Shown here one piece after another: positions 401 to 37,998 of a stretch of 38,116 bases of DNA. Numbering within the stretch: the first letter of the stretch is position 1; every line of letters begins with the position of its first letter. The stretch is from NCBI GenBank assembly GCA_014237365.1, contig JABZFQ010000235.1, positions 1 through 38,116 of the forward strand, read 5' to 3'. The notes beneath the pieces are model-generated. The model had not been told where the DNA came from and searched no databases. It saw nothing but the letters and a program-made list of their open reading frames with translations. The translations under genes and the position numbers were made by a program. The stretch is from Desulfobacteraceae bacterium (lineage in GTDB: Bacteria > Desulfobacterota > Desulfobacteria > Desulfobacterales > ETH-SRB1).

Positions 401-580
401 GGAACGTGAACGAATTAACTTCCCCAAGTAGGCGCACAGATTTGGGTCGAATTTGTTTGATCTCAGATCACAAAAGTTGATGGAATAGCGAGCTATTTCA
501 ATATTTTTGTGATTTGAGATCGGACAAAGGCAGCCTGAAGCTGTGATGCATAGTTGGGGAAATTATTTCGTCCACGTTCC
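401..580 (-). repeat. 180-bp hairpin element, full copy, inverted relative to most copies
   Basis: GGAACGTGAACGAATTAACTTCCCCAAGTAGGCGCACAG ... TTGGGGAAATTATTTCGTCCACGTTCC, with core GGAATAGCGAGCTATTTC. Confidence 0.95.
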
Positions 581-633
581 TTATCCTGTTATCCTGTCAA
601 ATTTTTTTTTCAAAGGGCTAAAAGTGTTACATT

Positions 634-2571
634 TTATTTAAGCCACTGCTCTCTCCACATCTCCCACATCAATAGTGCCCAGAGCTGATATTGGCGATTG
701 ACTCTGCCGGACATGTGTTCTTTAATCTTTTTCTCAACTATCACATGATCAAATAAACCTTCTTTTTTTAAACGCTCAGAAGAAAGATAATCTAAAAGAA
801 GGTCTTTCAGCTCTTTACGCAACCAGTGATCTATTGGAACTCCAAATCCCATCTTGGGTCGTTGAAACAATTCAGTGGGAACATAGCGGGCCAGCAACTT
901 TTTCAGCAAGTACTTGCCTTCCCCGTTTCGAAATTTTAAATCATTCGGCAATTGGGCAGTAAACTCAACTACACGATGATCGAGCAACGGCACGCGGACC
1001 TCGAGACCGGTTGCCATACTGGCACGGTCTATCTTGGTCAGCATGCAATCCGGCAGGTAGGTACCCTGATCTACACGCATCAATTGAGAAAGCACCGACC
1101 AATCTTTGGTTTCATTGAAAATCGTTTCATAATTGCTTTGCGGCAGGGTCCGGCCGATTAGCCGGAAAATGTCCGCATCCGGCCATAAGCAGATAGTCAT
1201 CCTGTACAATTTAGAAACCTGGGTCTGATCAAGGATCGAAAGCAGTTTCTGCCATTTCTCCTGAAAATTGGCAACCTGAAAACGTTGCGGTAGTCGATTC
1301 CGAATGGGTAGATAGCATTTTTCGATCCATTGTGCTGAAAGCAGTTTTAATGCCCGGGCCAAAACCTCTTTTACAACGATGGGCAATTTCCTGGACCACA
1401 AAGCCATGGTTTGGGTCATCCAATAGCGGACATAACCGCTAAATTGTTCATCGCCCCCATCTCCAGAAAGGGCTACGGTGACCTGTGAGCGGGTCAGTTT
1501 GCTGACCAGAAAGGTGGGAATAGCGGATGGATCAGCAAACGGTTCATCATAGATCTCTGGCAGTCGGGGAATAACACACAAGGCCTGTTTGGGAGTAACG
1601 TATAATTCAGTATGGTCTGTACCCAGATGATTGGCAACTTGTTTCGCCCAGGGGGCTTCATTAAAAGCTTTTTCCATAAAACCAATGCTAAAAGTCCGTA
1701 TTGGTTGGGAGCTGACTTTTTGCATCAATGCAGCGATAATCGATGAATCAATACCTCCGCTCAATAATGCACCCAGCGGCACATCGCTGATTAGACGATT
1801 AGTGACTGCTTCCGTAAGCAAGCTGTCCAGTTGTTCTAAATAATTATTTTCTTTAATTTTTATTGAAGAATAGTGATTGGGTACATCAGATGTTGGAATG
1901 TCCCAATAATGTTTTAAAGAAATTGTTTGGCCGTTAAACAGCAAAAAATTCCCTGGCGGTAGCTTATATGTGTGTTTAAATATTGTTCTAGGTGCCGGTA
2001 TGTACTGATAATGCAAAAACAGGGGCAACGCCTCATCATCGATTGTCTTTTCAAAGCATTTAAAGGCCATAATGGCCTTTAATTCGGATCCAAAAATAAA
2101 AGTTTGATCTTTAAAATAATAGAATAAGGGTTTAATTCCAAGCCGATCTCTGGCAAGAAAAAACCGGTTTTGGGGCTGGTCCCATATTGATAGGGCAAAC
2201 ATCCCTATGAATTTTTCAAGGCACTCCACTCCCCATTCCAGGTATGCCTTGAGAACGACCTCCGTATCACTACTGCTTCTAAAAATATGACCTTTTTTTT
2301 CCAGTGCCTTGCGTAATTGGAGGTAATTATATATTTCACCGTTATAGACTATATAAACAGTCCCGTCTTCACTGGCCATGGGTTGAACACCTGCCGCAGA
2401 AAGATCGATAATCGACAATCGGCGATGTGCCAAACCTATTCCATTTTTTTCGTCAAAATAAATACCTGAATCATCCGGCCCTCGATGAGAGAGTAAATCT
2501 GCAGAATCCGGAAGCAAATCTTTTAACTCAATATATCTTTTATGACTTTTGAATCCAACGATTCCGCACAT
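634..2571 (-). CDS. asnB: Asparagine synthase (glutamine-hydrolysing) / amidotransferase
   Basis: MCGIVGF N-terminal nucleophile Cys, SHRGPDDSG, LSGGIDSS PP-loop, SGDGGDEQFSGY. Confidence 0.95.
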   Translation of the reverse strand: MCGIVGFKSHKRYIELKDLLPDSADLLSHRGPDDSGIYFDEKNGIGLAHRRLSIIDLSAAGVQPMASEDGTVYIVYNGEIYNYLQLRKALEKKGHIFRSSSDTEVVLKAYLEWGVECLEKFIGMFALSIWDQPQNRFFLARDRLGIKPLFYYFKDQTFIFGSELKAIMAFKCFEKTIDDEALPLFLHYQYIPAPRTIFKHTYKLPPGNFLLFNGQTISLKHYWDIPTSDVPNHYSSIKIKENNYLEQLDSLLTEAVTNRLISDVPLGALLSGGIDSSIIAALMQKVSSQPIRTFSIGFMEKAFNEAPWAKQVANHLGTDHTELYVTPKQALCVIPRLPEIYDEPFADPSAIPTFLVSKLTRSQVTVALSGDGGDEQFSGYVRYWMTQTMALWSRKLPIVVKEVLARALKLLSAQWIEKCYLPIRNRLPQRFQVANFQEKWQKLLSILDQTQVSKLYRMTICLWPDADIFRLIGRTLPQSNYETIFNETKDWSVLSQLMRVDQGTYLPDCMLTKIDRASMATGLEVRVPLLDHRVVEFTAQLPNDLKFRNGEGKYLLKKLLARYVPTELFQRPKMGFGVPIDHWLRKELKDLLLDYLSSERLKKEGLFDHVIVEKKIKEHMSGRVNRQYQLWALLMWEMWREQWLK

Positions 2572-3395
2572 ACTTTATTTCCTACTGCGCACCAGTATGG
2601 TGCATCCATTTTAAATCTGATATTTTCTATGCCTGCTTTTTCCATCATCTGCTGAATCTGAATTTTGGTAAATCGATGCTCTAATTGTGTACCAAAGCGA
2701 TCTAATGCATCGTTGCACATAACATAGAAGGGTTGATGCCTGTAAAACGACAACGGCAGAACATCGACATCAATGCCAAGTTTTTCTAAAATTAACGAAC
2801 ATCTTGCTATTGGTAAATATATGAAGAAAGCAATCATCCGGCTGAAACCTGAACGTAATGAAAATGGCATTTTTGATACTATCTTGCGCAAACTGTTACT
2901 AAGGGACCAAAATATTCGAAACCAGGCGGGCCTGTTATCAAAAGCATAATAAAGATATATTAGAAATGGAGCTCCTGGTTTAAGTTTTGCCGTACATGAT
3001 TTTAATGCCTCCAGAGTTTCCGGGACATGGTGAAGCACTCCAAGGGAATATCCGAAACTGGCAGATCCATCCGGTATAGGGCTGTCATGTGTGCCTGCCA
3101 GGTGGAAACGGCAGTTTTCAAAATCCTTTAAATTTTTTCTGGCCACTGCCAGTGCCTTTGTACTAGGATCAATACAGTGCAGAATACCTACCCGTGGCGC
3201 AACAAACCTTGCCCAGCGTCCACTGCCACATCCCATGTCAAAGCCTACTGCGTTTTTCGGTATTGCTTCCCATGGGAAGATACTGAAATATGAGGTGAAG
3301 ATTCCTTCAAGAACATTTCTGGGTATATTCGTTTGATCGTATCTCGCCCACTCCTCGCCGAACCCCTCAACCACCCTCTCATCAATGTTTTTCAT
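2523..3395 (-). CDS. Class I SAM-dependent methyltransferase
   Basis: VGFDMGCGSGRWARFVAPRV motif I, LGVLHHVPETLEALKSC. Overlaps the next gene by 49 bp. Confidence 0.88.
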   Translation of the reverse strand: MKNIDERVVEGFGEEWARYDQTNIPRNVLEGIFTSYFSIFPWEAIPKNAVGFDMGCGSGRWARFVAPRVGILHCIDPSTKALAVARKNLKDFENCRFHLAGTHDSPIPDGSASFGYSLGVLHHVPETLEALKSCTAKLKPGAPFLIYLYYAFDNRPAWFRIFWSLSNSLRKIVSKMPFSLRSGFSRMIAFFIYLPIARCSLILEKLGIDVDVLPLSFYRHQPFYVMCNDALDRFGTQLEHRFTKIQIQQMMEKAGIENIRFKMDAPYWCAVGNKVCAESLDSKVIKDILS

Positions 3396-3427
3396 GTCCC
3401 CTTTCCGAATAAGGTCTCATCCAGCTT

Positions 3428-37628: not shown

Positions 37629-37697
37629 GTCATTCCCGTGAAAGCGAGAATCTATAACTAATTGAGAATACTGGATTCCCGTTTTCACGGGAATGAC
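37629..37697. repeat. REP/BIME-like inverted repeat
   Basis: GTCATTCCCGTGAAAGCGAGAATCT ... GGATTCCCGTTTTCACGGGAATGAC. Confidence 0.85.
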
Positions 37698-37757
37698 GAT
37701 TCAGGCTATTTCCGACAAAATTCAAATGTCTCACATCTGAACGGCTACAAGAAATTG

Positions 37758-37900
37758 GGTAGTCCATACAAAACAGTGCAAGTCAATAATTTCAAGTAGT
37801 TAGCGCTCAGTTGCTGTTAATGAGTTCATGCGTGAATCAAGGGTTTGCAGAGTATACCAAGCATCTTTTTGACCACCTGCACTGTTTTGTATGGACTACC
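37758..37900. mobile_element. 143-bp MITE with 23-bp perfect TIRs and 8-bp target-site duplication
   Basis: GGTAGTCCATACAAAACAGTGCA ... TGCACTGTTTTGTATGGACTACC, flanked by AGAAATTG at 37750-37757 and 37901-37908. Confidence 0.92.
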
Positions 37901-37940
37901 AGAAATTGCTCATTATTTGATCACTTTGTCAAATACTTTA

Positions 37941-37998
37941 GGAACGGGGACGAAATAACTTCCCAAAGTAAGCGCATAGATTTGGGTCAACTTTGTTG
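37941..37998 (-). repeat. 180-bp hairpin element, truncated
   Basis: GGAACGGGGACGAAATAACTTCCCAAAGTAAGCGCATAGATTTGGGTCAACTTTGTT, then unrelated sequence. Confidence 0.88.

Follow-up and report, generated by a model that had tools for sequence, protein, structure and literature searches.

MITE interiors are usually regarded as deletion debris. Among short bacterial repeats, ERIC and Correia elements both target TA, bcr1 repeats show a conserved RNA-like fold and a TTTAT motif, and REP/BIME sequences (RAYT) are palindromes of 20–40 nt with a GTAG/CGTC tag and no target site duplication (TSD). Photorhabdus luminescens carries as many as 711 copies of ERIC, an intergenic imperfect palindrome of ~127 bp that has been called a MITE (PMC10969869) and for which orientation-dependent RNA effects have been reported (PMC3049150). 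The Correia elements of Neisseria are short, intergenic, palindromic MITEs present in >120 copies (PMC10969869), the transcripts of which are cleaved by RNase III (PMC3049150); in the Bacillus cereus group, bcr1 repeats are short, interspersed and mobile, with up to 130 copies (PMC6542083); and the Chunjie MITE of Geobacter uraniireducens measures 178–235 bp, with 38 copies and 57 partial ones (PMC10969869).

The element described here, hereafter the seep element, was noticed in a 38,116-nt stretch of DNA (the window). It differs from ERIC in its length (180 bp), TWA target, occurrence in other phyla and, apparently, sequence, and its total is lower but is reached in a 3.5-Mb genome. Whereas bcr1 is confined to one species group, the seep element occurs in at least 35 genera of apparently two phyla; Correia elements are apparently unrelated to it in sequence and have a narrow host range. 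Its TWA target sets it apart from the ERIC, Correia and bcr1 families, to none of which we assign it. The Chunjie MITE, compared here by its description, is of similar size and resides in an anaerobe formerly grouped in Deltaproteobacteria, but has far fewer copies. The 3-bp TWA duplication is shared with the IS5/PIF-Harbinger superfamily; however, no transposase of any family was found with seep-element ends. The most fitting classification of the element is a new family of MITEs with an ancient strand-specific hairpin.

Copies of the element in the window

The window covers a glycan locus that encodes glycosyltransferases, methyltransferases, a polysaccharide ABC exporter and a sulfotransferase. 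The initial annotation had listed six copies of 180 bp, one derivative of 161 bp and truncated copies at 12910, 35292 and 37941; a repeat search and direct reading placed all of them at these positions, the six being exactly 180 bp long and 89–96% alike, with the copy at 401–580 in opposite orientation to the other five. In the following list, + and − refer to the folded strand, which is the strand with G·U wobbles.

401–580, +: full 180-bp element; TSD not intact (TCA / TTA)
9071–9250, −: full 180-bp element; TSD TTA
12910–12949, −: truncated copy, one end plus ~40 bp; TTA precedes; weak model match at 12910–13057
14610–14789, −: full 180-bp element; decayed TSD (TAT / TTA)
16835–17014, −: full 180-bp element; flanks TAA / TTA
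30074–30241, +: diverged element with type-2 end (TAA|GGGTTCGGTAAAAAATAA); covariance model 114.7 bits, E 1e-21
32815–32994, −: full 180-bp element; TSD ATA
34340–34519, −: full 180-bp element; TSD TTA
34758–34770, no strand: 13-nt terminal relic TCGTCCACGTTCC; TAA next
35292–35410, +: truncated copy; terminates ORF 34820–35371
37316–37476, −: 161-bp derivative with internal deletion; TSD TAA
37941–37997, +: truncated copy with one arm; from there to the contig end, repeated sequence of unrelated kind

A covariance model built subsequently recovered the six full copies, the derivative and the three truncated copies, and added the diverged copy at 30074–30241. The proposed scar at 34758–34770 has the match and the adjoining TAA expected of a true end, but is too short for certainty. 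The terminal inverted repeat had been put at ~27 bp, and the outer ~27 bp are indeed almost perfectly paired; the full length forms a single hairpin, as predicted, with an RNA folding energy of −109.8 kcal/mol (z −16) on one strand and −77.9 on the other.

Two further features of the window were observed. Pfam gave no match at 1e-8 for the small ORF 34820–35371 (+), which is cut off by the truncated copy starting at 35292, and long ORFs of the glycan locus contain internal direct repeats (27803–28044 / 28685–28926 and 31071–31145 / 31215–31289).

Copy number in the host genome

The window belongs to the JABZFQ000000000 MAG, which represents Seep-SRB1a sp. 3, 'Candidatus Syntrophophila', from a cold seep in the Gulf of Cadiz, and comprises 3,489,866 bp with a contamination of 1.53 (PMC10553843). 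This bacterium is a partner of methane-oxidising archaea. Element ends occur 1135 times in the 3.49-Mb genome (≤2 mismatches), against 0 for a reversed control pattern. Extrapolating from a complete count over 354 kb of contigs, the genome holds an estimated ~590 copies of ≥100 bp, ~450 of them full-length, amounting to 3.2% of its 3.49 Mb and to ~1 copy per ~6 kb. The very high density claimed for the window (ten copies in 38 kb) stands as a count, which is now 11, but is a property of the genome and not of the locus: with ~590 copies genome-wide, the glycan locus that the element was said to saturate is not special and merely forms part of a genome-wide pattern. An element load of ~3% in this uncultured bacterium, which lives syntrophically with methane-oxidising archaea, bears on genome evolution in these consortia, and explains part of the assembly breakage in consortium genomes.

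Insertions within ORFs are rare, accounting for just two of 151 non-redundant copies. Elements show at most a weak bias in their orientation to host genes: the gene downstream of the element is on the same strand in 75 versus 51 cases (p 0.04), and tandem cases number 39 versus 29 (p 0.27). The near-closed genome of another host (G068) has 23 copies in 1.6 Mb, and its GC skew is weak there.

Evidence for transposition

Direct repeats of 3 bp flank 48 of the 65 intact copies (TAA 27, TTA 19, ATA 2), and TAA is paired with TAA or TTA with TTA at 46 of these 48; because left and right repeats agree, they reflect target duplication and not a fixed motif. For three insertions aligned between congeners, orthologous empty sites with a single target copy were found: C187:30170 of the window genome (G000) against G007, C65:10308 of G004 against G000, and C51 of G001 against G003. 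On one contig, an element is nested at TTA within a second repeat family and, reciprocally, an uninterrupted copy of that family sits inside another element. The flanking DNA of copies in the window genome is unrelated from one copy to the next. Target duplications, empty sites and nesting together support transposition and exclude segmental duplication as a general cause. That duplication of flanking DNA produced the copies, the alternative named in the initial annotation, is negligibly probable given the unrelated flanks and the empty sites, the one case in its favor being a cluster in G068 (28.6–36.5 kb) of near-identical copies, ~1.4–3 kb apart in one orientation, which may have been duplicated locally.

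The initial annotation had proposed a non-autonomous palindrome mobilised in trans, based on constant length, sharp ends and the lack of a transposase ORF. The 180-bp unit indeed encodes no protein, and the TWA repeats, empty sites and nesting now support transposition in trans, which is demonstrated by its products and from which we infer the enzyme. The element thus combines a short unit with terminal inverted repeats, target duplication, empty sites and no transposase gene, as MITEs do. A single-stranded DNA route, in which a Y1 (RAYT) transposase acts on one strand of REP/BIME-like palindromes, would account for a preference for one strand as the hairpin, but is very improbable: the units are 180 bp long, their ends are without the GTAG/CGTC tag, and true 3-bp target duplications and precise empty sites are present.

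Search for the transposase

No DDE_Tnp_1 gene flanked by element ends was found in nine congeners and 13 other genomes, nor any DDE_Tnp_4 gene with element ends in 60 genomes. Ends without MITE sequence behind them, in the genus and in 396 genomes of the order, likewise led to no transposase, and no long autonomous element occurred in the 1.6 Mb of near-closed genome. The searches for an autonomous partner, which also covered type-2 ends and long TIR/TSD pairs, yielded nothing beyond relics, point mutants, composites and micro-elements; viral contigs had no exact match to the element end, and plasmid and phage records had none either. The autonomous element with identical termini that the initial annotation had anticipated was thus not found in these genomes, which are mostly fragmented drafts. 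Two candidates were rejected: a 2014-bp TIR pair at C66:5679–7692 consists of two unrelated ends around a putative lysine 2,3-aminomutase-like gene, and 'TTCAGCAGTGC' ends in G008 and G005 mark an orthologous relic without a transposon.

The duplication typical of IS5/PIF-Harbinger-derived MITEs (TWA or YTAR-like) is present, and the element end GGAACGTGGACGAAATAAC is similar to the IS5 end GGAAGGTGCGAATAAG. From the duplication and the end sequence, the mobilising enzyme is probably of the DDE IS5/PIF-Harbinger type; membership of that superfamily is not claimed, since no DDE_Tnp_1 or DDE_Tnp_4 gene flanked by element ends was found in the genomes searched. A different TWA-duplicating IS is present in the same genus (G006 C236, locus L075, 890–2196), with a TTA duplication and ends GAAGCTATTTC.

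Derivatives and composites

Units of 180–182, 192–193, 133–161, 79–80 and 68 bp were seen, and indels of 1 and 13 bp are tolerated within the element. Several genomes contain 30-bp units with target duplications in which the two ends alone are kept, and analogous 40-bp units occur in a genome with other ends. The deletion junctions of short units lie at 3–6 nt direct repeats, from which we infer repeated deletion across the palindrome; alternatively, the short units may transpose independently. Many places have composite units, in which just ~21 bp of element end adjoin a different repeat. Separately, the element at L220:2326–2503 is chimeric, its left end being of type 1 and its right end of type 2, which suggests recombination between subfamilies.

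Relatives and horizontal spread

The covariance model matched 52 of 119 related genomes, representing 35 of 89 genera. Hosts include the congeneric strains FWG171 and CR9063A and the Seep-SRB1g strain C00003106. A MAG deposited as Gammaproteobacteria has 103 matches, and within its order 12 of 79 genomes matched (this MAG and 11 of 78 others), including contigs of millions of bases; the weakest matches in this order (E 1e-5 to 1e-3) were partly inspected, and in some of its genomes the element occurs in low copy number. In other families of the window genome's own order, the elements have the same core but quite different ends, GGGCTCGCGCAAAAATAA rather than GGAACGTGGACGAAATAA. MAGs called Methanococcoides (three matches) and Calditrichaceae (two) were not counted as hosts because the copies are few and the Methanococcoides contig is just 1.1 kb long.

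Seep-SRB1a and Seep-SRB1g elements share up to 93.9% identity, and the two groups are placed in different orders (PMC10553843). Sister genera of Seep-SRB1a are mostly without the Seep-SRB1a element type. These distributions make transfer among seep bacteria likely. Across distant relatives the same folding pattern persists despite extensive sequence change, with identity down to 39%. At L390:1266–1486, a cobalamin riboswitch adjoins a distant relative of the element.

Conserved fold of one strand

In a strand-neutral self-alignment of 31 representatives, transition-type non-Watson–Crick pairs comprise 234 G·U versus 53 C·A on one strand, and the least decayed copy in the window genome has eight G·U and no C·A. 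The RNAalifold consensus energy is −29.1 kcal/mol for the folded strand, against −0.85 for the opposite strand. Standard pairs fill 94.8% of the pair cells in an alignment of 37 sequences, and both sides have changed at 31 of 54 pairs; cells with both-sided change number 141, compared with 41.6 (sd 5.3) after shuffling and no more than 39 in the slid controls. The shuffles ignore relatedness and the structure derives from the same sequences; the slid controls and the G·U/C·A asymmetry are therefore the stronger arguments. Seven distant relatives show a weaker asymmetry (34 G·U versus 13 C·A), and the same strand is the more stable in all seven. Covariation between the arms and the excess of G·U over C·A indicate that the fold of one strand is probably under selection, as RNA or as single-stranded DNA. 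Strand-biased deamination alone is insufficient, as it makes G·U pairs without selection but no both-sided changes.

Arm correction is established in palindromes, and part of the covariation could stem from arm-to-arm correction within this one. A MITE of which the ends alone matter, with an inert interior and covariation produced by hairpin-templated correction and shared ancestry, would fit the recurrent composites keeping just ~21 bp of end and the 30–40 bp micro-elements with target duplications. We consider it unlikely, since correction should erase mismatches or equalise G·U and C·A and would not retain the former yet avoid the latter; instead, variation runs through G·U and rarely through C·A (at an example pair, C-G 39, U-G 23, C·A 0), and the fold persists in the most divergent relatives. 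Comparison across families thus argues that the interior is not inert filler and that its structure is conserved.

A family of structured non-coding RNA genes spread by a transposase, with a host or element function such as regulating transposition or mRNA fate, would explain the strand-specific G·U use, the covariation, the cross-phylum conservation and the low copy number in some genomes. However, hundreds of copies suggest selfish spread, gene orientation is weakly biased, and Rfam gave no match in the window at the gathering score and nothing above it for elements in eight loci searched by E-value; such a family is, in our estimation, rather improbable.

Proposed mode of spread

We regard it as probable that the element is a MITE moved in trans, the constrained folded strand of which takes part in its spread or in host tolerance. 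The unit, a 180-bp imperfect palindrome encoding no protein, would be cut at its ends (GGAACG...CGTTCC in the Seep-SRB1a sp. 3 genome) by a transposase made elsewhere, and would enter TTA or TAA with duplication of 3 bp, an outcome recorded in the insertions themselves. Deletions internal to the palindrome would then decay copies to relics of 68 and 30 bp. The long hairpin of one strand, with its conserved G·U pairs, is kept while the stems, and even the ends, change in step. As RNA, its most likely form, or possibly as single-stranded DNA, the folded strand would take part in the spread of the element or its tolerance by the host; RNA is ranked first as a matter of judgement, chiefly because a duplication of the double-strand type leaves no obvious single-stranded DNA stage. 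The weak orientation bias gives no indication of a role in host mRNAs, and instead of regulating particular genes the folded strand may serve the element's own cycle or general tolerance, for example through RNase III processing of read-through transcripts.

More tentatively, and with doubts outweighing confidence, the hairpin could be an ancient strand-specific structure (RNA or single-stranded DNA) common to Desulfobacterota and Gammaproteobacteria, the fold rather than the end sequence being recognised by the machinery or the host, so that the termini would be free to change together under a constant structure. An interior that dozens of genera keep as a strand-specific fold, even as the termini change, makes the function of a MITE hairpin directly testable.

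Associated repeat families

The second repeat family lies at 1–165 of the window and at further contig ends in the window genome (C34, C66, C85, C30 and others); it has ends GAGTGTAACCAAAATAG and interior CCGTAGGGGCAGGCCCCTGTGCCTGCCC, nests with the hairpin element, and forms recurrent composites of its own body with ~21 bp of hairpin-element end. Weak relatives of the seep element at 18447 and 310822 in G068 (L301, L316) have a TTTTTGCGCGAGC end and a different interior hairpin (GCGTAGGAATATCAAGATATTTCTACGC). Another repeat, starting GGCTACATCGAGGTAGGGCAGCC, is common to the end of the window (37998–38116) and the end of contig C49, and may represent a group II intron or IS boundary.
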